Below, piece by piece: positions 1 to 59,700 of a DNA stretch of 64,000 nucleotides. Source of the stretch: Nymphaea colorata (taxonomy: Eukaryota > Streptophyta > Magnoliopsida > Nymphaeales > Nymphaeaceae); NCBI RefSeq assembly GCF_008831285.2, contig NC_045138.2, positions 38,369,115 through 38,433,114 on the forward strand. Reading direction: 5' to 3'. The first letter of the stretch is position 1. Each line of letters begins with the position of its first letter. The position numbers and the translations under genes were made by a program. Under the pieces are notes generated by a model. It was given only the letters and a program-made list of their open reading frames with translations. It was not told where the DNA came from and did not search any database.

Positions 1-3000
1 TCGAAAAGGAAAGCCGTACCTTGAGACATGGGAACTGCATATGGATCTTGATGAGGCTACGTCCCTACTATCAAGTTCAAAATGTCAATCAAATGCACTG
101 TAAATAAATGGCTGACTGAAGACATGGTCGATGCATGGCAAATTAGATGCATCAGCATAATGGTGAGTTTTAGAGGGTCATGTGTGAGACAAAAGTATTG
201 ACTATGAATAACCTAGAGTATGAAAGTTACGACAAACCCCGTACAACAAAAAGGGAAGCAGTCCCGTCAGACATGCGAACTGCATATGGATATTGATGTG
301 GCAACGTCCCTACCATCAAGTTCAAAATGTCAATCACATGCATTTGAAATAAATGGCGAATTGAAGACATAGCCGATGCGTGGCCAACTAGATGCATCGA
401 CATAATGGCATGTTTTATGATGTTATTTGTGAGACAAAAGTATTGTCTATGAAAATTCTATGGTAGTTAAGATTCGATGAACTCCGTACAACAAGGGAAG
501 CAGTTTCGTAAGACATGCGAACTGCATATAGATATTGTTGAGGCAACGTCTCCACAGTCAAGTTAAAAATGTCAATTACACGATTTTGAAATAATTGGTG
601 AATTGAAGATATAGCCGATGCATGGCCAACTAGATGCATCGGCATAATGATCCATTTTAGGGGGTTTTGTGTGAGACAAAAGCATTGATTCTGAAAAAAC
701 TTGGGCAGGAAAGATTCGATGAACCCTATACATCAAAAGGGAAAGCAGTATAATGAGACATAAGAATTGCAGATGGATCTTGATGAGGCTACGTCCCTAC
801 TATCAAGTTCAAAATGTCAATCAAATGCACTGCAAATAAATGGCTGACTGAAGACATGGTCGATGCATGTCAAATTAGATGCATCAGCATAATGCTCTTT
901 TTTAGAAGGTCATGTGGGAGACATAAGTATTGCCTATGAAAAACCTAGAGTATGAAAGATACGATGAACCCCGTACAACAAAAGTGGAAGCAGTCCGGTA
1001 AGACATGCGAACTGCATATGGATTTTGATGAGGCAACGTCCCTACCATCAACTTCGAAATGTCAATCACATGCATTTAAAATAAATGGCGGATTGAAGAC
1101 ATAGCCGATACGTGGCCAACTAGATGCATCGACATAATTGTATGTTTTAGAATGTTATATGTGAGACAAAAGTATTGTCTATGAAAATACTATAGTAGGA
1201 AAGATACGATGAACCCCGTACAACAAGAGGGGAAACAGTTCCGTAAGACATGCGAACTGCATATGGATATTGTTGAGGCAACGTCTCCACAATCAAATTA
1301 AAAATGTCAATTACACGCATTTGAAATAAATGGTGAATTGAAGATATAGCCGATGGATGGCCTACTAGATGCATCGGCATAATGATCCGTTTTAGGAGGT
1401 TATGTGTGAGACAAAAGCATTGATTCTGAAAAAACTGGGGCAGGAAAGATTCGATGAACCCTATACATGAAAAGGGAAAGCAGTACCTTGAGACATGGGA
1501 ACTGCATATGGATCTTGATGAGGCTACGTCCCTACTATCAAGTTCAAAATGTCTATCAAATCCACTGCAAATAAATGGCTGACTGAAGACATGGTCGATG
1601 CATGTCAAATTAGATGCATCAGCATAATGCTCTTTTTTCTAAGGTCGTGTGTGAGACAAAAGTATTGACTATGAAAAACTTAGAGTATGAAAGTTACGAC
1701 GAACCCCGTACAACAAAAGGGGAAGTAATCCCGTAAGACATGCGAACTGCATATGGATATTGATGAGGTAACATCCCTACCATCAAGTTCAAAATGTCAA
1801 TCACATGCATTTGAAATAAATGGCGGAATGAAGACATAGCCGATGCATGGCCAACTAGATGCATCGGCTTAATGGTATGTTTTAGGAGGTTATATGTGAG
1901 ACAAAAGTATTGTCTTTTAAAATACTATGGTATGAAAGATACAATGAAACCCGTACAACAAGAGGGGAAGCAGTTCCGTAAGACATGCGAACTGCATATG
2001 GATATTGTTGAGGCAACGTCTTCACAATCAAGTTAAAAATGTCAATTACACGCATTTGAAATAAATGGTGAATTGAAGATATAGCCGACGCATGGCCAAC
2101 TAGATGCATCGACATAATGATCCGTTTTAGGGGGTTATGTGTGAGACAAAAGCATTGATTCTGAAAAAACTGGGGCAGGAAAGATTCGATGAACCCTATA
2201 CATGAAAAGGGAAAGCAGTACCTTGAGACATGGGAACTGCATATGGATCTTGATGAGGCTACGTCCCTACTATCAAGTTCAAAATGTCAATCAAATCCAC
2301 TGCAAATAAATGGCTGACTGAAGACATGGTCGATGCATGTCAAAGTAGATGCATCAGCATAATGCTCTTTTTTCTAAGGTCATGTGTGAGACTAAAGTAT
2401 TGACTATGAAAAACCTAGAGTATGAAAGTTACGACGAACCCCGTACAACAATAGGGGAAGTAGTCCCGTAAGACATGCGAACTGCATATGGATATTGATG
2501 AGGTAACATCCCTACCATCAAGTTCAAAATGTCAATCACATGCATTTGAAATAAATGGCGGAATGAAGACATAGCCGATGCATGGCCAACTAGATGCATC
2601 GGCATAATGGTATGTTTTAGGAGGTTATATGTGAGACAAAAGTATTGTCTTTTAAAATACTATGGTAGGAAAGATACAATGAAACCCGTACAACAAGAGG
2701 GGAAGCAGTTCCGTAAGACATGCGAACTGCATATGGATATTGTTGAGGCAACGTCTCCACAATCAAATTAAAAATGTCAATTACACGCATTTGAAATAAA
2801 TGGTGAATTGAAGATATAGCCGATGCATGGCCTACTAGATGCATCGGCATAATGATCCGTTTTAGGAGGTTATGTGTGAGACAAAAGCATTGATTCTGAA
2901 AAAACTGGGGCAGGAAAGATTCGATGAACCCTATACATGAAAAGGGAAAGCAGTACCTTGAGACATGGGAACTGCATATGGATCTTGATGAGGCTACGTC

Positions 3001-4297
3001 CCTACTATCAAGTTCAAAATGTCTATCAAATCCACTGCAAATAAATGGCTGACTGAAGACATGGTCGATGCATGTCAAATTAGATGCATCAGCATAATGC
3101 TCTTTTTTCTAAGGTCGTGTGTGAGACAAAAGTATTGACTATGAAAAACTTAGAGTATGAAAGTTACGACGAACCCCGTACAACAAAAGGGGAAGTAATC
3201 CCGTAAGACATGCGAACTGCATATGGATATTGATGAGGTAACATCCCTACCATCAAGTTCAAAATGTCAATCACATGCATTTGAAATAAATGGCGGAATG
3301 AAGACATAGCCGATGCATGGCCAACTAGATGCATCGGCATAATGGTATGTTTTAGGAGGTTATATGTGAGACAAAAGTATTGTCTTTTAAAATACTATGG
3401 TAGGAAAGATACAATGAAACCCGTACAACAAGAGGGGAAGCAGTTCCGTAAGACATGCGAACTACATATGGATATTGTTGAGGCAACGTCTTCACAATCA
3501 AGTTAAAAATGTCAATTACACGCATTTGAAATAAATGGTGAATTGAAGATATAGCCGACGCATGACCAACTAGATGCATCGACATAATGATACAGTTTTA
3601 GGAGGTTATGTGTGAGACAAAAGCCTTGACTTTGAAAAGACTGGGGTAGGAAAGATGCGATGAACCCTATACATCGAAAGGGGAAGCAGTGCCATGAGAC
3701 TTGGGAACTGCATATGGATATTGATGAGGCTACGTCCTTACTATCAAGTTCAAAATGTCAATCAAATGCACTGCAAATAAATTGCTTACTGAAGACATGG
3801 TCGATGTGTGGCAAATTAGATGCATCAGCATAATGGTCAGTTTTAGAGGGTCATGTGTGAGACAAAAGTATTGACTCTGAAAAACCTAGAGTTTGAAAGA
3901 TTTGATGAACCCCGTACAACAAAAGGGGAAGCAGTCCCGTAAGACATGCGAACTGCATATGGATATTGATGAGGCAACGTCCCTACCATCAAGTTCAAAT
4001 TGTCAATCACATGCATTTGAAATAAATCGCGGAATGAAGACACAGCCGATGCATGGCCAACTAGATGCATCGGCATAATGGTATGTTTTAGGAGGTTATA
4101 TGTGAGACAAAAGTATTGTCTATGAAAATACTATTGTAGGAAAGATACAATGAACCCCGTACAACAAGAGGGGAAGCAGTTCCGTAAGACATGCGAACTG
4201 CATATGGATATTGTTGAGGCAACGTCTTCACAATCAAGTTAAAAATGTCAATTACACGCTTTTGAAATAAATGGTGAATTGAAGATATAGCCGACGC
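1..4297. repeat. Homogeneous tandem satellite array, ~245-bp monomer with 735/1470-bp higher-order period
   Basis: The motif gtgagacaaaag recurs about every 245 bp (near 189, 430, 671, 1160, 1407, 1651, 1895, 2138, 2630, 2876, 3119, 3365, 3612, 3856, 4102). Monomers come in three recognisable types, told apart by the bases after this motif (tattgactat, tattgtct, cattgattct), in fixed order. This gives a trimer of 735 bp. Every second trimer is even more alike: the segment from about 1147 matches the one 1470 bp further on almost base for base, while the intermediate copy carries shared differences. The array is open at the left window edge and is cut abruptly at about 4297 in mid-monomer. Open frames seen on the minus strand in each unit are treated as non-coding. 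Confidence 0.95.
2574..2603. repeat. Perfect 10-bp dyad (hairpin) inside the satellite monomer
   Basis: The arms gccgatgcat (2574-2583) and atgcatcggc (2594-2603) are exact reverse complements around a 10-base spacer. The same dyad recurs in other monomers, for example 4045-4074, and near 3310-3345 and 8595-8630. In the other monomer types it is degenerate (arms like gtcgatgcat and atgcatcagc). It is the only strong dyad I see in the monomer. Confidence 0.8.
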
Positions 4298-4424
4298 ATG
4301 CAAATGCTTCACCAGTTTGTGTAGAAGACTTTGAAACATCACTTTCATCCACTTCCACACTACATGAAGAGCCTATTGCAGGAGAATCTGAAACAACTTT
4401 TTTTCCTTTCGTTCTGTTTGCCAT
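4248..4424 (-). pseudogene. Truncated open reading frame (58 aa) cut by the satellite junction
   Basis: An ATG at 4424 opens a frame starting MANRTKGKK, followed by a Ser/Asp/Glu-rich stretch. This composition is unlike the satellite and resembles the disordered N terminus of a plant nuclear or transposase-type protein. After about 42 residues it crosses into satellite sequence at about 4297 and stops at 4248. The simplest reading is the 5' end of a former gene or transposon whose remainder was lost or displaced when it became joined to the array. I do not recognise the family, and no downstream exon is visible. Confidence 0.3.
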
Positions 4425-6500
4425 CTTTTATGGTTTTACCTTCAAAGTCCAAGATCAATGTGTGGTGTATTAGAAAGTAGAAACATAGTGTACTACAAGA
4501 TGCTTCTTCATTTAAAAAAATCATGAATGAAATGAAGTGTTCGCCGAAGAAATGGGAGAACACATTAAACAAAAGGAGTGACAAGTCATAACAATTTTAC
4601 AAAGTTTGTTTGGTAGGGAAACCAAAAATTCTACATGAAACATGAGATGCTCATCTAAGACTACACAGTGGTCTCATGTTTGTGCCCTCATTTTTCATTC
4701 ATGATCAGACCATATGCAAACTAATATTAATATACAATTCTTCCTAAAAAATATCCACCCAAAAACATATTCTTCACATTTAATCACCACAAACACCAAT
4801 GTGATAACAACATCAAGTATTGCCATTGTTGGTAGTTAAATAAAAGCATCTACAAAAATCATACAAAATAACATGCAATTTGTGCCCTCATTTGTGAACA
4901 AGCTATGATAAGTTGATAACAGATAGATATCCCCTTTGAGGAACATTCTTTGGGACCCCAAACACCAAGATGTGGACTAAAGATGGATGTTAGTGACACT
5001 ACATGACTCAGACTTCAATGTCAATACCAAAAAAACAACACATAGAATGCTGTAATATAAGACTAAGGTTGGGAAAAGAAGTGTTCTCTTCTATGGCAAT
5101 TGGCAATATGACTCTTAGATGGCTGCTCCTACATGTATCAATAGGCACTACATCACAGTAAGATAGGATGCAGTGGGTGCCAACTACTTTTTAAATCAGA
5201 AAACTAAGTACACAATACACAGGGGCCAAAGGGCCCAAAACTCCTGAACTGAGCAATCACATATTTCTGGAATAGTGAGCAAATTTTGTATACTGCGCAT
5301 CACACAGCTAGTAGCCTAGTACTGCAAAATATACTTTAATAACATCGAATAGTGAGCAAATTATGTGGTTAGATGAATAGCCATAACTAGCGAATCAGCC
5401 ATAACATTGTACTCTGACACTTTGATACATTTTATCGAGAGCAGAAAGTAATTATATGTACAGTAAATGAGTAAAGTACTTCACATCCACGTCGGGCTGC
5501 AAAGAGATTCTATAAACCGAAACCAGTGGCACCTAAAACATTGACCGCCATTTCATTAGCAAAATGTAACCCACAAAGAGGGCAGTAAAGCGTTGAATTC
5601 TAGCTCGACAGAAAAGGTTTCACTCCATCACTCCAACAACTAACCAACCAAGAAGCTGCAAGTCAAAGTTCCTGTGTTTTCCAAAAAAAAAAACGTATGT
5701 GAAAGAGAGATGATCTACCTTTTAAGGCAAACAATTAGTTCAAAGGGTGAGAAATCTGCAAACAAGAAGTTCGACGGTCACCTTCTGCCACAAGCGCAAC
5801 AGATCCGCTCACCAAACCTCCAATTCAGAGCTCTGCAAGGGAGATAAAGACCCATCACTACTCTGAAGAGTCTGAACTCAACGCATACAAAGACGCGCTC
5901 ATTAAACACAATCACCACTCCTTCTACTCCAATCCCCTCCTTGCTCTTCAAGAAGAAGGAGAGACAGAGAGAGATTGTGTGTGTGTGTGCGTGTGTGTGT
6001 TTAAATTTTCCAGAGATCAGAACTCCGGAGAGCAAATGGGGAGTTTAGAAAGAGCAGAAAAATGTCACCAAGAACACTTGGAAGCAATCAACATTCATGG
6101 ATCGTCTTCCGAAAACCCCAAAAACGCCCAAGTCGCGACTAACTTCCAAAGTAAACCACCAAAAACCCACACAGAAATCCGGAAGCAAATGAGGAGAGCA
6201 GAATGTCGATCAGATCACCGAAGAGCTCAACCCAATCCCCCCCACATCCTTCAGCTCACCCAACACTTCTGCCATCCAAGAAAAGCAAAAGGAAACAAGA
6301 AGAAAAAGAAAACAACGACAAGACAGAAAAAGTGAACAACGAGCAATTCCCCGGCGAGGATCACCCCCGAAGGGGAATCCCCGTCAAGCAAAGTGATCTT
6401 CTGCTCCCAGAAACCAAATGTGGGCTGCCTCCTTCCTCTACCCAGTAGGAAGCGGAGATCAAAGTGTACATTACATCAGTCGTTCAGTACATATTAAAGA
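4425..6500. other. Non-satellite intergenic block, no gene recognised
   Basis: AT-rich to 5.7 kb. From 5.9 to 6.45 kb it is purine-rich, with a short (GT)n run near 5978-6001 and a GC-richer stretch (6340-6440) containing small inverted repeats. Small open frames on both strands are low-complexity and show no family resemblance. The composition of 5.7-6.45 kb resembles a plant 5'-leader/promoter, possibly of the truncated frame at 4424, but nothing proves this. Confidence 0.5.
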
Positions 6501-6509
6501 GTGAGAGAG

Positions 6510-6780
6510 AGAGTTTACCGCACGCAGCGCAGAGAAGAGCGGCCGGCAGCGTCGCAGAGAGGGAGCAGCGGGTTTTGGCCTTCTGGGTGAGGGAGCAGCA
6601 CAGAGAGAGGGAGCAGAGAGTTCCCCAAGCGTCGCAGAGAGAGGGAGCACCGGAGCAGAGAGAGGGAGCAACGCACAGAGAGGGAGCACCGGAGCAGCGA
6701 GTGCTGAACGTCTGGCCTTATGGGTGAGGGAGCAGCACAGAGAGCAGAGAGAGGGCTGGAGGGAGAGGGAGAGAAGCCGA
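6510..6780. repeat. AG-rich minisatellite (gagggagca units)
   Basis: Imperfect repeats of gagggagca(g/c) and cagagagaggg. A larger segment, ggcctt(c/a)tgggtgagggagcagcacagagag, occurs twice about 137 bp apart (near 6577 and 6714). Arg/Glu-rich or Leu/Ala-rich frames across it are by-products of the repeat. Confidence 0.8.
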
Positions 6781-7011
6781 GCGTGCCCTAACCTAAGTTA
6801 AAAATCATGTAAAAATTAAAAAAACGCCCAAACTTTTGACGAAAAAGGGCAAGTGCGGTTTGACCGCACCCGACTCGCGTCTGCGCGTCTGGAAATGGAC
6901 GAATTCAGTCAGGTGCGGCTGACCGCACCCGACTCACGTTGACCTTTTTGGGTGCGCACCCGCAACGCATCGACACGGGTGTGGGTCCAAGTTGGACGCA
7001 CCCAGGTATCA
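6781..7011. other. GC-rich repeat-like segment, unidentified
   Basis: Contains two near-copies of a tgaccgcacccgactc(g/a)cgt motif (about 6859 and 6920), followed by cgcacccgcaacgcatcgac. It abuts the broken 3' edge of the Copia gag. It may be another element's terminal region; I cannot name it. Confidence 0.4.
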
Positions 7012-7434
7012 TTGCAGACAAGTCACCCTGTTTAAGAGAATAGATGTTGTGTTTAATCTGGTATGTACGCAGGACTCTCTTTTTACGGCCATACGTCCTC
7101 GCAAACACAGTCCACATGTCATATGAGGTCAACTTTCGCAAAATAAGGGGCTGAATATCAGCAGAAACAGAACTAATAATCCAAACCTTAACTTGACTAT
7201 CTTCCAACGCCCAAGTCGCCCATCCAGGATCAGTTTTACTAGGCGCAGGTTTCTCCCCAGTGATATAGGGCAGACGACCGTGACTAGTGATCCCAATTTC
7301 AAGCGCAGCAGACCAAGAGAGATAATTGTCTTTGTTCAGCCGAATAGAGGTGACTTGAACAGGCACATTTTCGCTCTTGGTATTGCTATCGTGTCAAAGG
7401 TAACATCGGTCTTGGAGGTCATCTCTTCAGTCAT
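7012..7434 (-). pseudogene. Partial Copia gag (UBN2-type), frameshifted
   Basis: The ATG at 7434 opens MTEEMTSKTD. The frame slips near 7389, where one base appears missing. It then continues in a second frame as SIRLNKDNYLSWSAALEIG, the typical gag N-terminal motif (L-x-x-x-N-Y-x-x-W), followed by WALEDSQVKVWIISS and a tail ending KQGDLS. After that it runs into unrelated sequence at about 7012. The family protein would continue with its zinc knuckle and pol domains, none of which is present. It is non-functional by frameshift and truncation. Confidence 0.8.
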
Positions 7435-7760
7435 ATCGTCCACAAAAGAAATCCAACAGTCAGAGAATACCAGAAAAGCACACGATGAGGACGGGCAGCG
7501 GCAGAACAGAGAGCTGCATCGACGGGAAAAAGGCCAGGCGACGACGGCGGTCTTGGCGACGGCGGCGGTCCAGGGGGCGGTGGTCCTGGCGACGGCGGTC
7601 TAGGCTACGGCGGCGATCCTGGCGACGACGGGGGTGCACGCCAGGCGACATCGGCGGGCTGCGTCGGCAGGCGGCGTCGGCGAGGATTTAGGGTTCAGAC
7701 GTAGGGTTCCAAGAAAACCCTAAATCACAAACGAACAAAGAAGCCAAACATCACGACTTT

Positions 7761-7773
7761 GGCTCTGATACCA
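7761..7773 (-). other. Primer-binding site for initiator Met-tRNA
   Basis: The minus strand reads tggtatcagagcc, the standard plant Copia primer-binding site complementary to the 3' part of initiator methionine tRNA. It starts immediately after the LTR terminal CA, which fixes the LTR end and the element's strand. Confidence 0.9.
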
Positions 7774-8060
7774 TGATGAAACACGCAGCGAAAGAAGAGA
7801 AAGAAAAGCCAACATAGGATTTACGTGGAAAACCTCAGAAAGAGGTGAAAAACCACGGGAAGCTCTAACCTAGGGGCAAAACCGCAACCCTAGGAGAGAG
7901 AAAACTTCATTCACTTAATCAGCAATTACAATAAGTGATTAGAATTAAAAGAGGGAGGAAGAGAGGCCTGCCTAGGGAATCGAGCCTATCCTCGGTTCCC
8001 ACGCCCATGGGTATCGGGTCCATATCCGGACCCGGTTCCCTATAACACTGTATTCTAACA
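7774..8060 (-). repeat. Copia 5' LTR (287 bp)
   Basis: On the minus strand it begins tgttagaatac and ends tttcatca, the TG...CA termini of LTRs. The end lies directly against the primer-binding site, and the other end lies directly against satellite sequence at 8061. Only one LTR copy is present in the window. Confidence 0.8.
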
Positions 8061-11000
8061 GTAGGAAAGATACGATGAACCTCATACAACAAGGGGGGAA
8101 GCAGTCCCATGAGAGATGAGAACTGCATATAGATCTTGATGAGGCAACGTCCCTACAATCAAGTTCAAAATGCCAATCAAATATACTTGAAATAAATGGC
8201 TGACTGAAGACATAGCCGATGTATGGCCAACTAGATGTGTCTACATAATGGTCAGTTTTAAGAGATTATGTGTCAGATAAGAGTATTGACTATGAAAAAA
8301 CTAGGGTAGGAAAGATACGGTGAACCCCATACAACAAAAGGGCAAGCAATCCCGTGAGACATGGGAACTGTAAATGGATCTTGATGATGCAACGTCCCTA
8401 CCATCAAGTTCAAAAGTACTGACTATGAAAAAACTAGGGTAGGAAAGATACGATGTGCCCTGTACAACAAGAGGGAAAGGAGTCCCGTGAGACGTGCGAA
8501 CTATATATGGATATTGATAAGGCAACGTCCCTAGCATCAAGTTAAAAATGACAATCACATGCACTTGAAATAAATGGCGGACTGAAGACATAGCCGATGC
8601 ATGGCCAACTAGATGCATCGGCATAATGGTCAGTTTTAGGAGGTTATGTGTGAAACAAAAGTATTGACTATGAAAGAACTAGGGTTGGAAAGATGCGATG
8701 AACCCCGTAAAACAAAAGGGGAAGCAGTCTTGTGAGACATGGGAACTGCATATGGATCTTGATGATACGATGTCTCTACCATCAAGTTCAAGATGTCAAT
8801 CAAATGCACTTGAAATGAATGGCTGACTGAAGACAGCCAATGCATGGCCAACTAGATGCGTCGACATAATGGTCAATTTTAGGTGGTTGTGTGAGACAAA
8901 AGTATTGGCTATGAAAAAACTAGGGTAAGAAAGATACGATGAAACCCTGTACAACAAGAGGGGAAGCAGTCCCATGAGACCTGGGAACTGTTAAACGATG
9001 TTGTTGAAGCAACGTGTCCACTGTCAAGTTAAAAAATGTTAATTTGATGCACTTGAAATGAATAGCTGACTGACGACATAGCCGATGCATGGCCAGCTAG
9101 ATGCATCAGCACAATGATCAGTTTGAATAGGTTATGTTTGAGACAAAAGTATTGACTATGAAAAGACTAGGGTAGGAAGGATACGATGAACCTCGTACAA
9201 GAGGAGAAGCAGTCCTGTGAGACATGGGAACTGCAGATAGAACTGGATGAGGGAATGTCCTTGCCATCAAGTTCAAAAAGTGTGTTATGTGAAATTCAAA
9301 TAAATGGCTTGCTGATTGCAGTGGTAAAGTTAGCGAATGTTGCATCTGCAAGTCGGCAGCATTCTTGACGAATAGAGATGAACGAACATAGTCTTTGTTT
9401 GGGATTATTATTGACAATCTCGTGCATCTTTTCTCATCGTCTTGGCAAGTAAGTGCGTCACTTATAACTTAAGGAGCACTCAAGAGATGAGTTGTCAGTG
9501 ATGTGTGATTGTCTCGGTATGGGTGCAAATGATACGATGAAACTCGTACAACCAGAGGTGAAGCAGTCCCGTGAGACATGGGAACTACATATGGATGTTG
9601 ATGAGGCAACGTCTCTACCATCATGTTAATGATGTGTGATTGCCTCAATATGTGCGCAAATGATGGGACAATGACACCCATACAACCATAGGAGATGCAG
9701 TCCCGTGAGACCTCGGAACTGCATGTGGATCTTGATGAGGCATCGTCTCTACCATCAAGTTCAAAATGTCAGTCAAATGCACTTGAAATAAATGGCTGAC
9801 TGAAGACATAGCTGATGTATGCGAACTAGATGTTTCGGCACAATGGTCAGTTTTTGGTGGTTATGTGTGAGACAAAAGTATTGACTATGAAAAAACTAGG
9901 GTAAAAAAGATGCGATGAACCCCGTACAACAAAAGGGGAAGCAGTACCATGAAACATGGGAACTGCATATGGATCTTGATGAAACAACGTCCCTACCATC
10001 AAGTTCGAAATGTCAATCAAATGCACTTGAAATAAATAGCTGACTGAAGACATAGCCGACGCATGGCGCCTTGACCAACTAGATGCGTCGACATAATGGT
10101 CAGTTTTAAGAGGTTATGTGTGAGACAAAAGTGTTATCATGAAAAAATTGGGGTAAGAAAGATACGATGAACCCTGTACAACAAAAGGGGAAGCAGTCCC
10201 GTGAGGGCTGGGAACTGCATATGGATATTGACGACGCAACGTTCCTACCATCAAGTTAAAGATGTCAATCACATGCACTTGAAATGAATGGTTGATTGAA
10301 GACTTAGCCTATGTGTGGCCAACTAGATGCATCAGCATGATGATGAGTTTTAGGAGGTCATGTGTGAGACAAAAGTATTGACTTTGAAAAACTAGGGTAG
10401 GAAAGATACGATGAACCCTGTACAACAAGAAGGAAAGCGGTCCCGTGAGACAAGGGAACTGCATATGGATCTTGATGAGGCAAAGTCCCTACCATCAAGT
10501 TTAAAATGTCTGCTATGTGAAATTAAAATAAATGGGCAGCTGATTGTCGTAGTTAAGTAAGCGAATTTTGCCTCTGCGAGTGCATTCTTGATGAATAGAG
10601 ATGAACGTACATACACAGTGTTTGTTATTATTGTTGACAATCTTGTGCATCTCGCCTCATCGTCTTGGGAAGAGAGTGCGACACTTAACTTAAGGAGCAC
10701 TCAAGACTTGAGTTGTTAATCATGTGTGATCATCTCATTATGGGTGCAAATGATACGATGAAACTCGTACAACCAGAGGAGAAGCAGTCACGTGGGACCT
10801 GGGAACTGCATATGGATTTTGATGAGGCTATATCCCTACCATCAAGTTGAAAATGTCAATCAAATGCACTTGAAATAAATGGCTGACAGACAACCTAGCT
10901 GATGCATGGCCAACTAAATGCATCAGCATAATGGTCAGTTTTAAGAGGTCATGCGTGAGACAAAAGTATTGACTCTGAAAAGCATGCAATACTATAAAAG

Positions 11001-13400
11001 TGCAAGAGCATGATGAGAATAGTTAAGTAAATGTTAGATTACCTGAGGTATATTTTTTCACAATATGAACATCATGTCGCCTCCTGCATTTTGAGATCAG
11101 ATGGGGCACAATTTTTTATGAAAGGGGTCATGACGACCCTTGTCATCTTGATGAATTTCATCTCGAAATAAGATATAAGGTGCATGTCATGAATTTAGGA
11201 TATGATGTCCTTGACATATGTTCGTTTCCTTTACAATGAAAGATAAGACAAAATGTTGGTTGAAATCAGTGGTCGATGTTCAAATTAGTAAATGAGAGAA
11301 GATGCAAAAAGGCTATTGAAAACAAAAAAATTTCCATTTGATTACATTGAACTAGGGTAGAAAAGATACGATGAACCCCATACAGCAAGAGGGGAAAGCA
11401 ATTCTGTGAGACCTGGGAACCACATAAGAATTTTGATGAGGCAACGTCTCCACCATCAAGTTCAAAATGTCAGTTATGTGCAATTAAAATAAATGGTTGA
11501 TAGGTTGTCATGGTTAAGTAGCAGATATTGCATGTGGGAGCATATTCTTGACATATAGCAATGAATGAACATAGATTTTGTTTGGGATTATTATTGACAA
11601 TCTTATGCATCTCACGCAAGAGAGAGAGACGCTTATAACTTAAGGAGCACTCAAGAGATGAGATGTGAATGATGTGTGATCGTCTCATTGTGGACACAAA
11701 AGATTAGATGAAACCCGTAGAACCAGCAAAAAGCAGTCCCGTGAGACCTGGAAACTACTCAAGGGTGTTGATGAAGCAACATTCCCACCATCAAGTTAAA
11801 AATGTCAATCAAACATAATTGAAATAAATTACTGACTGATGACACGACCAATGCATGGCCAACTCGATGCATCGTTATAATGGTTAGTTTTAGGAGGTTA
11901 TGTGTGAGACAAAAGTATTGACTATGAAGAAACTAAGATAGAAAAGATACGATGAACCTCGTACAACAAGTGGAGGAAGTAGTCCCGTGAGACCTAAGAA
12001 CTGCATAAGGATCTTGATGTGGCAATGTCCCCACCATAAAGTTGAAAATGTCAATTATGTGCAATTAAAATAAATGGCCTCTGGTGGTCATGGGAATGTA
12101 GTGTATGTTGCATGTGGGCGCACATTCTTGACAAATAGTGATGCACAAGCATATAATTTGTTTGGGATTATTATTGACAATCTTGTGCATCTCACCTCAT
12201 CGTCTTGGCAAGAGAGAATGACACTTATGACTTAATGGTTTTTGAAGGTTGAGATGTAAATGACATGGCATCATCTCATTATTAGCAGAAAAGAATGGAT
12301 AAAATTGGAGATTATTTTGAGCAGATATTGGCATGCATTCAAACATTTGGACTCTTATGACACCGCACTTTTACAAGCATGGTAAAAAAGATGTACAAAT
12401 GGTGCAAGTATTTACTAGGTTGGGTAATGACGCTTAATCCAACATGTACAATCCCGACTAGCATGATCACCCCAACATTTCATGCAAAAATGTAGAACTT
12501 GTTGTCTTTGTTCCTTTGCTAGAAACATTAAAGAATTATAACAGCATAGGTTCTCGTAAACACAACTAATGCATGGCGGCATGGTCAACTAGATGCATCG
12601 ATATAATGTTCAGTTTTAGGTAGTTATGTGTGAGACAAGGGATGACAATGAAAAGTAGACAATACTAGAAAAGTGGGAGTAGCTGAGTACATGGTGAGAA
12701 TGGTTTACATATTCGACTAGTTAAGGTGTATTTTTCCCTACACAAATATCAAGCAGCTTCCTACATTTGAGACCAGGTGGGGGAGCTGCTCAATTTTTAG
12801 TGGCAAAAAATGCTACTCTTTGTTTATGAAAAAAGTCATGAAGACCTTTATCGTCTTCATGATGAATTTTGTCTTGAAATACGATATAAAGTGCATATCA
12901 ACAATTATGGTGATGATGCCCTTAAGATATGTTTGTTCCTTTTCAACAAAAGATAAGAAAAAACACGGGTTGAAATTGTTGGGCGTTTTTAAAATAAGTA
13001 AATGAGGGGAGATGCAAAAAGAGTTTTTGGAAAAAGGATTTCTATGTAGGTAAATTGAAATAGGATAAAATGGCTATGATGGAGCCCGTTCAACAACGAC
13101 CAAAGCAGACTTCTGACACCTGAGAACTGTTTATGGATCTTGATAAAGCAACATCCCCACCATTAAAAATGGTAATTAAGTGGTATTAAAACAATAGGCC
13201 AATTGGTTGTCATACACAAGTAGTGGATGCTGCATGTGGGAGCACATTCATAATGAAAAGCTATAAAAAAAATTATACTTTATTTGGAACTATTTTTTAT
13301 GTCTCATCATCTTGGGAAGAAAGAATGACATATGTAACTTCAAGGGCATTCAAGAGGTAAAAGTTAAATTTGGTGTAATCGTCTCATTATGGGCACAAAA
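8061..13400. repeat. Decayed outer part of the satellite array with mixed longer units
   Basis: Monomers of the same family continue (cagtcccgtgagacatgggaactg, gatgaggcaacgtccctacc and the vicinity of the dyad recur). They are increasingly diverged towards 13.4 kb. A second unit type carries an extra block (gacgaatagagatgaacgaac ... attattattgacaatct ... cttaaggagcactcaag), seen near 9340, 10590, 11545, 12130 and, very worn, 13250. Blocks at 10985-11340 and 12650-13030 are related copies of a non-satellite segment, spaced about 1.67 kb apart. The right limit is approximate. Confidence 0.85.
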
Positions 13401-31739: not shown

Positions 31740-32282
31740 TCCATAGGGGCGCGTGATCAACGGCCGAGATGATTGCGACTGGACGGCCGAGTTTGATTGT
31801 GACCGGACGGCCACGATCGCGAATCACCGGGCGGCACGTGATCCGCCGAATCACGTCCGCCCCTTATCGTGGCCGGTCCGACGGAACGGACGGTGAGGGT
31901 GGAGAGACGGCGCCGCTCTCAGTCGTTAGCTACGAGAAAGACAAGAAAGGGCTCAATGAATCCCGTGAATTCCCTGCCTCTCCTCGCGGGATCCGTATTC
32001 CGGTTTCTCTATTTATCCGTCCCTTGATTTTATCGCTCGTACTCCCCCGTGTTCCCTCCCGCCCGCACTCCTCTTTCTCTCCCTCTTTTCTTGCTTCTTG
32101 GTTTGGAGGGAGAGGGAGGAGGTGAGATCTCTTTCTGGTCTGCAAATCCCCATTTTCTGGTAGTTTTCTTGCTTCGTATCCGCGCATTCTTTCAGTTGTT
32201 CCTTCTAGATTGGGCTGCTCACGACGATTAGTGTTTCATTTGTTTCTTCTTGGTGGATAAGTGAGTGCCGCCGCCGGGGAAG
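31740..32282 (+). promoter_or_regulatory. CTP synthase promoter/5' leader with 24-bp repeats and a G-box core
   Basis: GC-rich island in AT-rich DNA. Four adjacent related units of 23-25 bp begin acggcc or gcggc at 31760, 31783, 31807 and 31831. The last contains CACGTG (31835-31840), the G-box core bound by plant bZIP and bHLH factors. A CT-rich stretch (32000-32110) resembles plant 5' UTRs. A tataaag occurs upstream at about 31646. Transcription start not determinable by eye. Confidence 0.45.
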
Positions 32283-35200
32283 ATGAAGTACGTTCTTGTT
32301 TCCGGAGGAGTCGTCAGCGGGCTCGGCAAGGGAGTGATGGCGAGCAGCATCGGTGTGGTTTTGAAGGCGTGTGGTCTGCGTGTAACATCCATCAAGATAG
32401 GTATCTCTCTCTCTTGCCTCCTTCTTGTTCTTGTTCTTCTTTCTAGCGAGAAGATGGCGGGCGCGGAGTTGCTTTTATGCACCCAATGTGCAGAAATTTT
32501 GTTTTCAGGGCTTCGACCTGAAATATTTCGTTCGTTTTCGCGTTGTAATGTGAGGAAGAGTAGGGGATTTATTATTTATGCCGTTTGTCGGAAGTTTCGT
32601 TGAGGTATTTCGTTTTTTCTTCCCTTCTGGATTATTAATGGACGCCGGCTTCTGGCAGCGAAAGGTTTCGAAGTTTTTCTCCTGATGTTGGTCACGCGCT
32701 TCCTTCGTTCTATGTGTTTATAGAGTGACACCTTCCGTGACGGCTGAGCGTTACACTATTACTCTCTCACTGTGCGCGTGCGCGTGTGTTCTGTCTCTGT
32801 CTCTCGCTCTCTCTCTCCATCTCTCTATCGATTAATATATTCGGATGATTTAAGTTATTAGACTGGCATCATAGTTTTTTATTTCGTTCCTTAATCTCCC
32901 TATACAAGTCTTTTATTTTGAGAGCGATCCCTTAGGTCAACCCTGGTAGGAAACAAGATACTGCATATAGATTATAACTTGTTCTTGACTATTTGACGGG
33001 TTTGAGGCGTTTATATGCCTCATTTTTCTTGAACTGTATTACTTCGATGATTTTGAGTCCTATATTTTTTGATAAGGAAATGAATCCTTCTTTTTCTTAA
33101 TAATCTTAGGTTTTCACACTTTTCCACTACTACTGTCACTGTTTGTTTATTTAGGTTATTACTATTTGTTATTGTTATTATTGTTGTTTTTTGTTCTGTT
33201 CCGGATTTGATTGTTGAGACGTGTGTAGTTTCTGTTTTCCGTCGTCTAAGTACTTGGAAGATTTCCTTTTTCCCCCAAGAATTTCTACCGCTTTAATTAT
33301 TTACTAAAGAGTTTTTTTTTTTTTAAAACAGTCGTGGTGTCTAGGGTTTCGAAATTTCAAATGCGACCTCGTAAAGGATTTGAGGTTCATTTCTTTTAAT
33401 ATTTACAATGGCTGCCATTCGCTTGTTAGTCAACCTTTTTTTTTGTTACAAATAGGACGGCTTACAGAAATGACGATTTTAGTTTTGTTTTAATTATATT
33501 ATCTGTTGTTGGAAAGAACACGATTCTTTTTTTCTCGGTTCAACTCCTTGTGAAAGAGCGTCAAAGAGAAAACGTGGTCGCATTTCAGCAAATGCTTGTT
33601 GTGGATTTTTTTTCCATTTTTTAGTGTAAGAACGTTCAATGTACCCCAAAAAGTGACGACCGACTCACCAGTCGTTGCGTGAAATTCAAAATCTTTATCA
33701 CCTCCCTAAGGCAGTGCTTGTCTCTCTCTATCTTATGGTGAAATAGTTGAAGTTTTGCTTTCTTTTCTGGTTTGGCTTCTTTAGGAGAAAGGTAGGCCGT
33801 CCCACCGAATCAACTTGCTTACTCTAAAAATGGATGTTGGGGTTAATTCTGGGCTATGTGGTCCCAATTCTTCTTTTTAACCCTGAAAGTTATCGAAACT
33901 TTAATTTAATTATGACGTCAGGATCTGTACAATACTTTTTAACGGTTGCCGTTGGAATTTTGGTGAAACGTTCTGCTCTTTGCACATGGCTAATAATACC
34001 TTTTGTCGTTTGCTACTTCTCCCAAGTGTCGTCAGTTTTTTTCACTTGTATGGAAAACCAGGCAAGCTGCCCACGAAAAGCAAAATTAACAGGTACCTTT
34101 GGTCTGTCCCCGTCCTTTTAATGTAAACTTGCCCTTTTGATAGTGTGTAGTAGAAGATAAAAACAGAATATTACTTTTCATGGTGCTCTTTATTACCACT
34201 TGACGGGTGGATTCCGTTTCGCTCTTTTGCAATTTAGAGTATAATCCCCACTCAAAAGAACGAGCCTTTAACGTTCCTTCAACATTTTGAATGATAAGAA
34301 AATTTAGTGCTTGTTTTCACTCTGAATTTTCGTCCACAAAGTTTTACTATCCCAAATGTAGAGTCCCCTTCTTCGTGCCCTAGTTTATGGTCCTTTTTTA
34401 CCCTTAGTTCCCAATTGTTGCACCAGCATTTTTTTTTTGACTTCCATGAATAAAGCATGAATCTTTCTCTTGAGATTTACAATTCTACTCATATTATTAT
34501 TGGCTCCTTTTTTCTTCAAAAGTTGATTTCCAGTATTATAGCTACATGAGCAAATGATGAAATGAGATATGCTTGTGATTTCTTCTTCTAAGAACCTGTA
34601 TAACCTTCTATAATTCTTCTTTGGTTTTGGTTTTTGGGAAGTTCACACTGCATTCTGTAAATTATTTGTCATCATGTTGGTTTAAGTGAAAGAATTGACT
34701 GTTTGGTGGTGAGCTCGTGGTTGGAATGCCATAAAAGTGGGGAATGTAGACATGGTTATTTTCTGGACAAGTACACCGGTATTGGGATTTACTTTCATAT
34801 TTTTGTTTTGGGTTTTCAGGAGAGTTGATTTACTTCATAAATTCTGATTTATTATATCTCAATTGCTTAGAGCAGTGTAAAAATCCACTTCAAAGTGTAA
34901 TGTGTAGGCTACAACAGGAGGCTTGCACTAAAACAAATACAACACATCAAGCACAAAGGCTTCACATAAATACATGCAAAAGTACACACATAAGGGTAGA
35001 CATAAATAATTTTGTCGATAGGGCTTGCATAAGCTTCAAAAATGGGAGGGAATCATCCTCCCAAGTGTACAACAAGAGGGAGTAAGAGGAAGCTGAGTTA
35101 TCTGTTGGTAGGTCATTCTTGGTCAAAGGCTATCCTTGACAAAAGAATGAGGATAAAATAAACTATAAAGAAACATACACTGTAAATTTAACATCAAATA

Positions 35201-44260: not shown

Positions 44261-47200
44261 TTAGAATTTTTGGGTAGGGGCACGATCATTTGGCTCGAGA
44301 ATCCAGTTTCGCTCGGAACTACCATCGGATGCTGCCTTGGATATTCGGAGGATACAGCTGTGGTAGTTACGTAGAGTCGTCCTATGGCCGATGCTAACAT
44401 ATGTTATTCCAGCACCTTTAATTTCTCCATACAGATGGGCCTGTCGACGATAAATAGACATTGAACTGTTAGTACCTCATTATATGCAGTTACATGGGTT
44501 GGCAGACCAGGATGATGGCCGATGACCTGAAACTGCAAAAGGGAGCTCCCAAGGTAAATAACAGGAAAGGGGAAAGCTAAAAGAAGTTTTACCTCATTGG
44601 CTTCATCTAAGGCACTAGTTGACTCATCCAAAAAGACCAACTTTGGCTGTGCCAGCAGCAAACGAGCAAATGCCAGCCGCTGCTGCTCTCCAAGTGAAAG
44701 GACACTAGACCATTCAAAGATTGAATCAAGACCAAAACGTCCTACGATATCACCGAGGCGAACTCTCTGCAGGGCTGCTAGGATGTCCTTATCTGTGGGT
44801 TTGTCAACAGTTCTATAGGCATCCTGCCAGCTTGGAACCCTAGATAAGAAAGGCAGCGATCCTGCAAATCATGTCATGTGTGTAAGATGATCGCAAGTAA
44901 CTTTGTAATGATTCACCAACATGAGTTGAAAACACTGAATGCGCAAACTAGGCAGAAATACTACTTCATATGCTCAACAAATGCCATTATCTTAACTCTT
45001 GTCAAGAAGATCTCAACCAGTTTGATTAGTTCCAGCTAAACTTTAGGGCTTAATAGAGTTGTTTCAAACTTCTGATTTTGACAACTTATGAACTGATTAT
45101 TCTCAATTATCTTCTTGTATTGAAGGAACTTATGGACTCCAGTATCCTAGACATCCAGTATAATACATCTCCTTCCATCTGGACACATTATACTAAAGGA
45201 AGCTTCTTTTTTTTTCCTGGAAATTATGGGAAATAACAATTCACTCATAGGACTGGCAGAAAACTCTCCAATTTGATAAGCATGGTAATACTTACCAACT
45301 GATTGACTTTGATCCGTAGTTGAAATAGCCTCATCTCGCCATGTTGGATAAAGTAACTGCTGACGGAGAGTCCCTAGAACCATATATGGTCTTTGTGGAA
45401 GGAAGAAAATATCCTGAAATCTTCTATTCCGAGAGCTTTCATATTCATTAATTACAGTATCTGCCACTCCATCCTCTAATGTCTTCCTCAATCCACCGGG
45501 AGCTGTTTCTGAAGAAACAGTCTCTTCAAGCTCCTTCAAATCTCCCAAATAGAATGTGATCTTGCCTTTTCCACTGCTCCAAAGACCAGCCATCGCTCTC
45601 AAGAGAGAAGTTTTTCCACTTCCACTGGGACCCATGATCTACAAAATAGAATTAAATTCAGAGCACTTCCACATTTAAGCTACTCAACTACAAGCAAGAT
45701 GCATAACTAACCAGTAAATTATCTTTGTTGCAAATATCCAGGGACAATTCCTTAACAAGAGTAATGTTGCTCCTTGGTGTCCATAGAGTGAGATTCCTAA
45801 TTTCCAGAAATTTTGGGTGATCATTTGAAGGCACAGATCCATTTTCTTCCATAGAAGAGTGGGTTATGTTACTATAGGTGAGAGCAATCTCTTCCTTGGG
45901 GTCAGACAAACCTGGAGTACTTGAACCGTCTAGAACATCATCAAACTCACCTACGAATAAATCAATTCTCATGATCAAAATACTGTCAGATAAATTTAAA
46001 TTAATCAACGATATGCAAATAAAAGATAATAAAATTTTCAGAAAATATGTGGTGAGTCCAAGAAATAAAAGTTAGATATAGATCGCTTTATGAATGGATG
46101 CTGTGAAGCTGTGAAGGTATCAGTTCCACCACTTTGTTTTTAGTTTTTTTTTTCCTTCTTTTTTGCATTCCTTGGTCTATGGGTACTGCTACTATATGGC
46201 AAATGAAGTGTAACATTTTTTTGTTACCAAATCGACTTATATATTCTTACAAGAAAAAATTGATTTACCTAGTCGATCTATAACAGCTGAGAAGGCACTG
46301 ATGGCCTGAAATTGGTACACAATAAGCGAAAAATCCCCAAGGATGTGATTGAAGGCAGATACTGATTGATTGATAACTCCAAATTCAATCTTTCCTGAGA
46401 AATACATAGGAGCAATGACAGCAGCAGGAAGAATTTGAATCAGATAGCGGTAACCATTCGTGAAGAACTCCAAATTTCGGGAAGCAATCAATAATTGCTG
46501 CAGCATAATCCCAAATAAAAAACATTAGTGTCTTAATAAAGTAGAAGAGTACATCATTCAAACAATTATAGAAGTAACAGACAGACCTAACGTGTCTTTT
46601 GTACATGATAGAAACACTAGCAAATCCCTAGCATTTATTTTTGACAAAAACCGTAGTGAGCAATTTGAAGCATAGGATTTCTTAATAAGAAGATGTTGCT
46701 TAACAAAAATCAAAAGTTGCCTAAGCACTAAAAATTACACATGCATTTGAAGAGAGTATGTTCTAATTTGACATTAGCTGGTATAAACTTTCTAGGCTCC
46801 AGCTGGGGAGAAAAAAGGAATTTCTTATAGTTTTTTTTTGGGTACATAACGTAGTTCCACAAAGAGTTCATGAAACTGGATGATGCATAATTAGAATTTA
46901 GAGAAGGATAATGTTAGATGAAAGTCTGCTCATGACAATGCAAGACATATCAATTATACGATCAACTACAGTTTAATGCATAAGTTGCACACATTGTGAA
47001 AGAAACCTACTATACTAATTATTCATTACGTCAAAGGCACAGAAACAGAATAAATGTTCAAAGAAAAAGCTAGAGGAATAGGTTAAAGGAAGATACCATC
47101 AAAAGGATGTGTATCTTTTTTTCCATTCGTTCACCAGAATGTATCATTATGCCTCATTCACAACATAATGATGAACTGTAGAAACACATTCTGTGAGATA

Positions 47201-53243: not shown

Positions 53244-56200
53244 CTAGCGGGCAAAATTTTGTTGAAGGGAGAGATTATAAATGAATATCCTCAAGAAAGC
53301 AAAAATTGAGAGGACTGTGCCTCCAAAAAGACATACTTTCAGAAGCTTTGATCGTCTTCTGGGGCTCCACCAAGTAAAGGATGACACAGCAACTTCCATT
53401 ATACAATCACCATCTAGTCGAACTACCTGTTCAAGATAAAAAGAAATAAATGGTTCAGCAATGATGTTGGGTACAATCAAATGAAAATTTTTATCGTCAA
53501 CATTCACATCTTGCGGAGCTCTCTTTTACAAGTATAAAACTTTAGGTTCCAATTCAAGGTTGCCAATACGGCAAAGCAGGAATGAAGCAGGAAGAAGTGG
53601 AAAATAAAAAATACTGTAGGCTAACCAAAAGCCAAAATAAGAAGCAAACACAGAGGGAACTAAAAAACACATTCTGTGAACAAAGATAGCAGCGGAGAAG
53701 CACATTTTTAATCTGAAATTTTAAAATGAACGCTTCGCATCTCTAATTGGTTATGGATTGGACAATCTTTTTTCTTTTCAAGAAGAAACTTTTTTTCGAA
53801 AATCAGAAAACATATATGTAAAAAAAATTAAAAAGAAGAGAGCTCTTACAAATACTTAAAACTATTTTACAAGCTGACATGTGGCACTTTTGAATTGCCC
53901 ATTGCATTGTATTGATTTGCCATAATTCAATCCAATTCACTGTATTCAGGCTGATTCTGGTAACGTTAATCAACGTTCAACTATTATGAATCTATGATAA
54001 CTACCAGTCAACCATCAGTCCATCACTTGAACATAAAATAGAGCTCAAGCCTTCTCACTCAGAAAGAGGTCATGGCAAAAATCAACAAAATGGTCGGGAA
54101 CGAGAACAGGACTATTGGTTTATGTGCTCTGAAATGAAAAGAAACAGCAATTGTATAAGGTCATGTGGCATGATTGCATCTGTAAGAAAAAATAATAGTA
54201 TCCTCCAAACCATATCGAGGATGAGAAAGTCTTGAGTGATACCGGCAAGACGTTGAGCAGAGCCAGGCCTGCAGATATGTGGAGAGTAAATGCTAGCAAA
54301 TTTTCAAGTGCAGCTGGAAAATATCCATTAGAAAAGAAGAACCAGCGTGGCCGATATGCTGTTAGCTGAACAGATTTAGCAATGGAGAGAGCATTATCTT
54401 CAATTACAAAACTCCCCCCACAATTCCTTCTTTGCTCACCATAAAAGCACCCGAACTCATACGGAGTTGAATATCCAACCTCAAGCCATGTGGACCCAGG
54501 TACTTTCACACGACTAAGGCAGGATTCTCCCTGAAGAAAAGAAAAACTTTAATTTAAGAAATGACCAACTTTTTGTTGAAATACAATCTCTACACAGAAA
54601 TAGTTCAATCTCAACAATCAGGCATAATCTACTGAAGCAGATACTTTGAATCAAGAAGGCTGCCACTAACAAAAGGACAGCAAATGCATTTCCTAAATAT
54701 CAAAACACAAAAAGGTTCTCTCTTTAAACAAAAATTATCATGAAAATGGAAGACAAGTACGTCTGTTCATTATTCGAAGCATCATAAAAATATGCACCTA
54801 TATAATTCCATCTACAACCATATCTGGTTTCATTCAGCATGCTTCTGTGAATAAACATGTATTCATATTGCATACGTATAGGTATCTTCTGGGAATTGTG
54901 GTAAATCTAAAATCAGCATGGCAATCTTACCTCAGGACATGAACAGCTGTTGTTGCCTGTCTCAGGAGTTGGCCATCCATCCCCACATTTTTGGAGGCCC
55001 ACAATATCTTTTGCAACCAAACAATACATGTCATCAACTCTTTGCCCAGTACTGTTTAGAGCATCAACTTTATGAAGAAAAGTGGAATTTGGACATGGTT
55101 CAACCACAAAAGCTTTAAGCCCATCAGGACAACCAGATGTATCAGGTAAAGCTTGAAGGTTCCTGCTCTCCTCTAACCATGAAACAGGAACACAATAACC
55201 TTTCCCATTACCGGAGGAGAAAAAATTGTGTGTGTCCCCAGAGTATACAATATTTTCAACTGCTTTTGACTCTATTGAAGCCAATTTCGTCCTCCATTCT
55301 TTGGGGTCATTAATATTGATTCCATCCATGGAGACAATAACATCTCCATAACCTAATTTCTTGGAAAGTGGTGAAGTTGGAGAGACACTTAATACCTGCC
55401 AAGAAAGTGGTTACTACGGCAGTAAGCACGCACATAAAATAATTCAAAGGCAACAAACATTATTAAATAAATGCTTAATGGGAAAAATGACAATACCATT
55501 GGATTGCTTCCATGAATATAGAGGGGGGATAGAAGTAATGGGAGGAAAAGCAGCATAAGCCAACAAGCTGCAGACAACTAAACATATTTGAACAATTTGT
55601 TAGTTTTGACTAAAATGAGACAGTGTAAAAAGGAAAAAGAACAATGAAGTGAAAAGTGCACACTGCACAGCCTACAGAATATATTCCAGAACTCCAGACA
55701 CATATGGCACACATCCTGGAAACACATTTTGTATAATGGTCTAAGAGATAGCCCACATCCAGGAAGCACATTCTCTCGATGTTCTCAAAAGGACAAGAGA
55801 GACATGAATATCTAGAAAGAACCAAATGAATGTAAAATAAGACTATAAAATGGCAACAACTATAAAATAAGACTGTAAGATGACAACTATGCCAACAGAC
55901 ATTACATGCTGAGAGCTGTATTTTTAACAAAACCAATAGATTAAATATCATAACTTAAATGGAAGATAAATAATCCTATGAACCTAAATTTGCAGCAATA
56001 AAATTACAAAGTGAAAGCAGCTATTCAGCTCAGGCAGCCCATGTCTACTAACATGTTCTGTCTAATTTGTCTACCATATTAACATCCTCAAATCAAAAAT
56101 CAACATAAGAATCAGATAGCTCACCACTGCATTATGCCATACACCAGCACAGTAAATTCGAAGGTTAGTACAGCGTGGTAGGCTCTGCAGCACTTCATTG

Positions 56201-56740
56201 TCAAAAGAAACCAAAGCCCCAGGAAATAATGTTGCAAGAAAGATTGCAACATATTCAATGCGCAAACCCTCACTGTTAGTGCACATAATACCACCATTAG
56301 AATGTGCTTCCCAACAGGAAAGAAGAAATAAAGCCAGAAAGAATATTATTTTCCCCAGAATAAGATGGACAATTTTCATCAAACCGCTCAGCCTACGGCC
56401 AGAAACTATATTGCAGTAATTTCACCTTCAACAATTTATTCTTCTGGAGAAGGCACAGAACATCCAAACAATTTATGTCTTATGGCACAACAACAACAGA
56501 TTCAGAAATTCATTCAAACCCTATCTAAGTTTGCATTATCAAATGTCAAACTGAAGCAGATATATCCATGTTAGTCACTTGAGCCGACAAAGTTTAAGTT
56601 GTCAGAGCCGATAGGCCCGATACGACCAAAGTAACTCACTTTATGGAAAAGAATTATGTAGTAGCAAATAAAAGATCCAAAACCAAGTTAGAGGAAGTTA
56701 TTAAGAGCCCTGAATTTAACTCATGGAGGTAACCATCAAA

Positions 56741-56788
<48 letters not shown>

Positions 56789-59700
56789 TGTAGCAGCTTC
56801 ATAACACCTTTTTTAGAAATTTTTTAAAGAAAAAAGTAGTAGTAGTGAAAGCACCACATATATGAAGTTCCAGAATAATGGGATCGGATATAACATAATA
56901 AAAACTGAGAAAATGCAATTGTATCATCTGAATATAACTCCAGAGTCCCAAGCACCTGCAAAGGACATAGAGCAATTCAGTGAATTCGTTTATAATTTTA
57001 TCAGATAGCAACACAGAATTATTCACTCTCCATATTGAGGTTCATTTGTTTCCTATTGACTTCCCTTCTTTTTAGGCCAGGCTCACTCAGCATCTAATTC
57101 AATTACTCACTTTTCAACTTTATGTCACTCCATCTTTTTCTGTGACTTGAATGAATAAAGGCTAAAGCTGTTGTGTGACTGCCACATACACAATACTAGA
57201 TGCAGAAATCAATCAGCCACGTACAAACAACTATGTATGTTATTGGCGTTTACAACTTCAGTTCAAATGCAGAAAACATTACATGGTTTCTGGTGCACAT
57301 GCATGTTGATCCAGCTTAATAAATAAATAAATAAATGTCCACCCTTAATAAAACACACCTGAATAACAATAACGAAAAACTGCAATGTTAAAGAACTACA
57401 CCTTGCTGCAGCAAGAGCATGGCCAAATTCATGAATAGCCACAGCCAAAATTGTTGAGAATATCACATATCCAGCATCTACGAGAGATGTGCATGAACTA
57501 GGAGCCTATACAAGATTATAGTAAGTAACAAACAGTTGGTTGAAATAATATTAAAGGGATTAACCACTAATTACCAAGTGAACACTTACCAAAATCAGAT
57601 GACGCAACAAATGGTTATTGGTTAGATCCCACACTGCCATACCCTGGATATACATATACAATGCATTTGCAAATTGCCAAACTAGGACCTGCAGTGGCAT
57701 GAAATACAACAACAGCATGCCATATTATCATATGGCATCTTCAGTCAGAGAAGAAACAATCACCAAATGCACAAGTAATAGCAAAAATCCAATAAAATCG
57801 AACTTAAGTAAAGCAAGGAATAAAATGAGAGGATTGTTTCACACTTCACTAAATTTATGCAATCATATGAAGAAAAAACTTAAATTTTTTATAGTCAAGC
57901 AGATGCTCACTAGATAACAGAACAGGTACTTAAATATGAAAACAGGAACAACAATAAGAAATAGTGCCTGAGTGATTCTCTTACCACAATGCAACAGCAT
58001 TAGCAAAATTTCTTTTCTTCATTAGCTCTTTCATTTTTTTTTAAAATTTCTTTATCAAACTATTAATGGATAAACATACAGAAGTTGCATGGAGCCGTCC
58101 TTGAAAGCAAATGCAATCTTTACCTCACATGGGCACTAATTCCCCACTGACTGCTAAATTCACAAAAAGTAAACCTTAAAGGCATAACCATGTACCTGTT
58201 GACAATATAGGTAGACATGAACTTCTGGTCTCATAAAAACATGCATAGACAGAAACTCTCAAATATAAGAACGACTAAACATGAGAATCAAGTGTGCTGA
58301 TTTTGCAAATCTGGCTGCATGCATGCACTTCCAGAAAATGTCGGATTAAGAAGAAAAATTATTGTTTAATGCATAGATGAGATTATACAAGGGTATATTT
58401 GTCAACAGAAGTCACCTGGGGGACCTTTACCAGGATGACTTTACCATAGTAAAAAACTACATATAAGGATACAACTTCTCGTCCGCCCTTTTTTCGTAAA
58501 AATGGACAGAAAGTGGACAAATTTTCACTGTTGCCATGCAACCATGTCTGAATTATGTGTATGGGCGGGACATTCTTGAAATGTCCCACCCATCAGACAC
58601 CCCCTAAGGCTTAAAGTTCACTTTTCTGAAAATTGTCAGCTAAGAAACTCTGATGTACACATTAGAAAATCAGAACTTATGTTATTGGACATGGACAGTC
58701 CACTTGATTAGATTTACAAAATCATGTTAAAGTAGCCATGAGAACACAATTATTCAGTGACAGTGGTATTGCCAAAGAAGCAATTTGCAAACAAGTAACT
58801 TGAGATTTTAGCCTTTAGCAATTTAGAATGATATTTTCTTGCTTACAGTTCAGCAATTATAAATGATATAAAATATAACAAAATGCAAAACCACATGGTT
58901 GTAGAGCATAAATAATTGAAGAGACAAAAACATTTATAAAAAACACTATCATTCTTGACAACAAGGGCTTTACTGACCATTGTAACACCAATAAATGCCA
59001 TCAAGCTGAATCCAAGTCCGATACTGAACCAAACCTTCAAAATCCTGCAGTCACAGGGGATATATGACATCTTTCAGCACATACATATCCAGATACATGG
59101 TTGCTTGAATGTTGATCGCCTGCATTACAACTCTATATAACTGTCATATTAAAATATATTAAAGAAAATCAAGAATGAAATGATAAAAGGATGAAAGATG
59201 TATCCAGTTTTATTAGAACATAAATATATGTGGAGAATAATAACACCTCAAAACTTGTTTTGACCATGCACCTAACAACGAAAGACAGGTTCTCCTGCCA
59301 AAAATGTTGTTAAAAGGTCTTGGACATTTCAAAAACAGAATGCCATATAAATCCTTGTTCTCTGCAAATGCACTTCAGTTCCAATGAGTTTGTTAAGAAG
59401 GAAAAAGGACCATGATAATGTAAAAGGAGCACAGGTTGAATACTTAAGAGGTCATTCATAAACACAAATAACCTAAGTCACTTGTTGGTCTCCATGATCC
59501 TAACAATCTGACATGGAGAAGAGGCGGCAGATGGATGGCTGGTAAAGTTTGACGCCAGGTCCCAAAAGATCTAAGTGATAATCATTCAAGCAATGAATTT
59601 TCATTACAAAAACTTCAATACAGGAAACTATCAACTTAAAAGAAGCTCTCTCGAAAGGAGATAGAAAGAATAATATTTTTATCCCTACTATACTTTGACA

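Follow-up and report, generated by a model that had tools for sequence, protein, structure and literature searches.

Does a satellite array of textbook regularity, on a stretch of DNA that also carries genes, mark a centromere, or can such order arise elsewhere? Higher-order repeats (HORs) are often taken as a sign of centromeres, and an array of this kind opens the window analyzed here, a 64,000-nucleotide stretch of Nymphaea colorata (C1:38369115-38433114, in an assembly of 407.8 Mb and 783 contigs, of which C1, C2, and C6 are named below). We favor, with a probability of roughly 0.8, a dispersed plant satellite of 245-bp (S) and ~345-bp (L) monomers, which forms arrays of ~8 to 80 kb, is re-amplified locus by locus, and is most likely non-centromeric and functionless. 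The regular trimer in the window would then be one local pattern of a sparse satellite. The features of the window are listed in Table 1.

Table 1 Features of the window, with positions counted from its first nucleotide
Feature	Position	Strand	Remarks
S-monomer array, 245-bp unit, strict ABC order, 735-bp trimer HOR	1..4297		Homogenized
Right end of the second copy of the 8486-bp tandem duplication	1..2702		0 differences from the sequence 8486 bp leftward
Near-identity at lag 1470	1236..3565		The only such stretch; 1236-2095 versus 2706-3565, 860 bp, 5 mismatches
Array interruption, 3.76-kb insertion	4298..8060		Unclassified from 4298 to ~6.8 kb, then truncated minus-strand copia-type retrotransposon
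copia gag fragment	6905..7393	-	Retrotran_gag_2 E 2.5e-5, Retrotran_gag_3 E 3.7e-4; both below the Pfam gathering score
Primer-binding-site-like 11-mer	7763..7773	-	
LTR of the copia fragment, 276 bp, TG...CA	7785..8060	-	Adjoins satellite at 8061
Divergent array edge	8061..13166		S monomers (~245 bp), S monomers shortened by deletion (133-134 bp), L monomers (335-354 bp), inserted C block; trimer matches
L monomer, 354 bp	9220..9573		First ~90 and last ~45 bases common to S; middle different and longer
L monomer, 347 bp	10448..10794		Has relatives on C1 and C6
C block within an S monomer	10981..11340		Recurs in part at 12820-13021
CTP synthase exons	32265-32600	+	Pfam match
ABC transporter exons	44407-45638	-	Pfam match below gathering score
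PDZ domain and peptidase M50 exons	54916-57505	-	Pfam match below gathering score

TRF reported a period of 245 with 17.5 copies at 24-4300 of the window, in line with the 245-bp array of the original prediction, which was made from the sequence alone. Seventeen full monomers were cut from the array (245 bp in fifteen, 242 bp in one, and 246 bp in one), all pairs were aligned, and identities were averaged per lag. Mean monomer identity was 80.3% at lag 1 (n = 16), 80.1% at lag 2 (n = 15), and 94.6% at lag 3 (n = 14), with lags 9 and 12 giving 92.2 and 90.9%, respectively; the lag-3 value was matched by none of 10,000 random monomer orders. These results indicate that three monomer types alternate strictly and that the 735-bp trimer is real, as had been predicted. 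The trimer shows both a fixed order of variants and a multimer identity far above that of monomers, the two properties by which an HOR is recognized. The three types (A-B 84.9%, B-C 85.7%, and A-C 79.2% identity) each formed one group in a midpoint-rooted tree, in which monomers from the array edge had no ABC order. Neither Rfam families at the gathering threshold nor tRNAs were found in the whole window, and a literature search for a 245-bp plant satellite and with four monomer stretches did not find the repeat described.

A second level, a 1470-bp hexamer in which alternate trimers are nearly identical, had also been proposed, with the pairwise identity matrix as a check. The matrix peaked at lag 3 but showed no separate rise at lag 6, where the mean of 94.4% (n = 11) did not exceed that at lag 3 and was reached by 604 of 10,000 within-type shuffles. 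Trimer T3 matched its neighbor T4 (98.0%) as well as the alternate T5 (97.6%), and the other alternate pairs were less alike (T1-T3, 91.8%; T2-T4, 94.8%). The hexamer was rejected as a general level because lag 6 is no higher than lag 3 and a single 860-bp stretch is seen twice; one event, and not a further tier of HOR organization, lies behind the near-identity at this spacing. Homogenization at the level of multimers, which the hexamer had been taken to imply, finds support in the trimer and in multimers at other genomic loci but not in the hexamer. The simplest explanation for it, and a likely one, is exchange out of register or gene conversion within arrays; rolling-circle amplification or re-insertion, which would leave much the same pattern as exchange, may have acted instead.

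The array is present at 1-4297, as first delimited, but these limits are too narrow, since the family also occupies 8061-13166 and continues for at least ~69 kb left of the window. Identity declines toward the right-hand edge, where monomers were 84-93% identical to their own consensus. The consensus of nine edge monomers was nearer to A (89.8%), B (92.7%), and C (86.5%) than these are to one another, a position that fits an older, less homogenized edge, although a consensus is central by construction. We infer that the change ran from edge-type monomers to ABC order.

Each S monomer of the window also contains a dyad, GCCGATGCAT-N10-ATGCATCGGC (e.g., at 614-643), which is perfect in some of them. 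The dyad is present in the edge consensus, and any such 10-bp dyad arose in 2 of 2000 shuffles. Over 26 sites, 212 of 260 positions were paired, with 5 compensatory cells versus 47 one-sided changes. We rejected the dyad as a conserved structure because its changes are mostly one-sided, with no sign of selection for pairing; inheritance accounts for it. The exact 30-base dyad had no match in collections of viral and genome contigs, a result that says little about a plant repeat.

The homogeneous array and its edge are separated by an insertion that includes a truncated retrotransposon, with an 11-mer that we take to be a Met-tRNA primer-binding site; no second copy of its LTR was found in the window. 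On the right, the nearest gene with Pfam support, among the ten ORFs of the window that were tested, is that for CTP synthase at ~32.3 kb. Intact genes had been placed within 20 kb of the array, a distance that holds for this gene from the last recognizable monomer (19 kb) but not from 4297 (28 kb). Gene content and element types point to a plant.

Counting its copia insertions, the locus as a whole covers ~82 kb. Left of the window, satellite occupies C1:38319115-38342459, the left bound being the edge of the joined sequence, and it was found in 3 of 20 one-kb samples from C1 34.0-38.316 Mb (38300, 38305, and 38315 kb); it was absent at 38310 kb and in all 16 samples between 34.0 Mb and 38290 kb. 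When 143 monomers were typed against A, B, and C, the order shifted along the locus, from B/C alternation on the left through three CBBCACAB octamers (1960 bp) from 38333341 and a mixed stretch to ABC order from ~38349 to 38373 kb. In the left part, mean identity at lag 8 was 95.1% (n = 33), and the type letters there denote the nearest type only, with a mean best identity of 93.2%. A 1336-bp insertion at C1:38351046-38352381 consists mostly of imperfect internal repeats.

Two copia-type insertions were delimited, one of 5449 bp with a 459-bp LTR pair of 99.6% identity and one of 5242 bp with an LTR pair of ~330 bp and 81% identity, flanked on both sides by GCAAC; pieces of them matched copia gag with E values of 4.7e-22 and 6.3e-24, respectively. 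The 5242-bp element, together with the array on its right, is doubled in tandem at an offset of 8486 bp (C1:38354869-38371840), with an identical run of 8383 bp. The duplication reaches positions 1-2726 of the window, and TGTGAG is common to copia and satellite at the junction. The doubling may have arisen recently in the chromosome, by tandem duplication, or only in the assembly. On C6, satellite-bearing blocks were observed at 84-107, 122-132, and 154-178 kb and at 17.264-17.274 Mb, 99.6-99.8% identical in part and some of them inverted. The block at 17.27 Mb matched that at 0.13 Mb in inverted orientation (99.8% over 8.8 kb), and 84-99 kb matched 154-169 kb (99.6% over 14.7 kb), with the likeness extending into the flanks; these blocks may likewise represent segmental duplication or assembly duplication.

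Such copies bear on whether the higher-order pattern is largely a product of assembly, as when segments are duplicated in resolving a repeat graph. The perfect 8383-bp run and the C6 blocks agree with this explanation, and assembly error could account for the duplication and for runs of units that are 100% identical. However, the ABC trimers differ by up to ~9%, so their order is independent of copied blocks, and TGTGAG is common to both sides of the junction, as is often the case in real tandem duplications. An assembly artefact had been named beforehand as a danger to the repeat structure; the exact copy of positions 1-2702 lying 8486 bp to the left lends it substance, but the ABC order persists to the right of the duplicated segment. 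We regard a largely artefactual pattern as improbable.

A 26-base monomer probe (up to 2 mismatches) found 737 sites genome-wide, compared with 0 for a control pattern, with sites on C1, C2, and C6 among the matches listed. With ~3 sites in each kb of satellite (20 kb of C1 gave 3.3 per kb), this corresponds to ~0.2-0.25 Mb, or ~0.06% of the assembly. Genome searches give lower bounds: the 23-kb array at C1:38319-38342 kb, evident in the sequence of the region itself, escaped a query with the trimer, so absence in such searches is weak evidence. Separate loci on C1, among the matches listed, lie at 26.54-26.58, 29.41-29.45, 33.22-33.23, and 38.30-38.38 Mb, and the L monomer had at least 302 matches, with C1 and C6 among those listed. 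At C1:29.428-29.442 Mb, the nine units compared, of 1564-1567 bp, form a 1565-bp superrepeat unlike that of the window; units 1-5 are 99.9-100% alike and units 6-9 94.1-99.0%, and one unit, read twice, is made up of six steps, five of S length and one of L length. At C2:1274774-1286201, exact probe sites were mostly 1.38-1.47 kb apart, a hint of another superrepeat.

The array could also belong to the centromere or pericentromere of its chromosome, or lie at its margin, with the HOR as the centromeric unit. Centromeres can have HORs, copia insertions, and a decayed edge around a homogeneous interior, and the array is longer and denser leftward than in the window. Nevertheless, the very high abundance and long arrays of a centromeric satellite were not found in this assembly, which may under-represent the family; 737 sites in 408 Mb speak against a main centromeric satellite, although centromeric arrays may be collapsed or missing. 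Several separate loci lie on the one contig C1, 17 of the 20 one-kb samples were without satellite (including all at or below 38.291 Mb), and Pfam-supported genes occur in the window from 32 kb on. The original prediction had described young HORs as known mainly from centromeric or heterochromatic satellites, but an HOR alone is no centromere mark: PMC12046899 describes non-centromeric arrays in Salicaceae that are organized in HORs and have no CENH3 peaks. Judged from the sequence, centromeric identity is unlikely, and an explanation of the locus as centromeric seems very improbable. The least probable explanation places the repeats inside a mobile element, as internal tandem repeats spread by it, for which the near-identical C6 blocks in both orientations and the precedent of satellites from retrotransposon subrepeats (PMC7004042) could be cited, but the elements at the window locus are insertions into the array and not its carriers, and the C6 homology passes beyond the satellite into the flanks, which fits segmental duplication.

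The preferred reading is therefore a low-abundance dispersed satellite with locus-private HORs, probably made by unequal exchange and local duplication. Re-amplification at each locus would start from a few neighboring monomers peculiar to it and so yield a private HOR, such as the unit of five S and one L at C1:29.43 Mb; sub-locus-private HORs may also arise within one locus, as with ABC in and beside the window and the octamer further left. Out-of-register exchange or gene conversion would keep the array interior homogeneous at the multimer level, and the edge at 8-13 kb would escape homogenization, decay, and retain older S and L monomers. Retrotransposon insertions and the microhomology-flanked 8486-bp tandem duplication would have reshaped the array afterwards. 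The locus most likely has no function beyond repetitive DNA. A more specific and doubtful proposal is that one non-centromeric, low-abundance family keeps at least three private HORs (the 735-bp trimer, the 1960-bp octamer, and the 1565-bp unit) at gene-bearing arm loci, with older S and L monomers still readable at the edge. If true, these three HORs would form a compact natural experiment on how local homogenization picks its unit without centromere selection. The family is otherwise unremarkable, a product of ordinary repeat turnover, and it argues for homogenization as a local copying process and for caution in calling centromeres from HORs alone.

Primate alpha satellite has a homogeneous HOR interior, divergent edge monomers, and locus-specific HORs, and the present family resembles it in all three respects. 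By contrast, the monomers here are 245 and 345 bp long, the arrays measure tens of kb, and their abundance does not point to a centromere function. Among 171 species with Sanger data, 76 were reported to show clear HOR structure in their candidate centromere repeats (PMC4053949). As described there, these plant and animal satellites share ordered variants and a multimer identity far above monomer identity with the array studied here, but they exceed all other tandem repeats of their genomes in abundance, whereas the 245-bp family has 737 probe sites. Tandem repeats associated with LTR elements are also known from the retrotransposon-derived FabTR satellites of Lathyrus (PMC7004042); unlike in those satellites, the copia elements here are inserted in the array. 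The Salicaceae satellites Palv148 and Salix180 are, like ours, plant satellites off centromeres with HORs and homogenization (PMC12046899), with other monomer lengths by name in a comparison made without sequence. According to that paper, the Salicaceae arrays are abundant and monomers of different chromosomes mix, whereas the 245-bp family is sparse and carries its own superrepeat at each locus examined.
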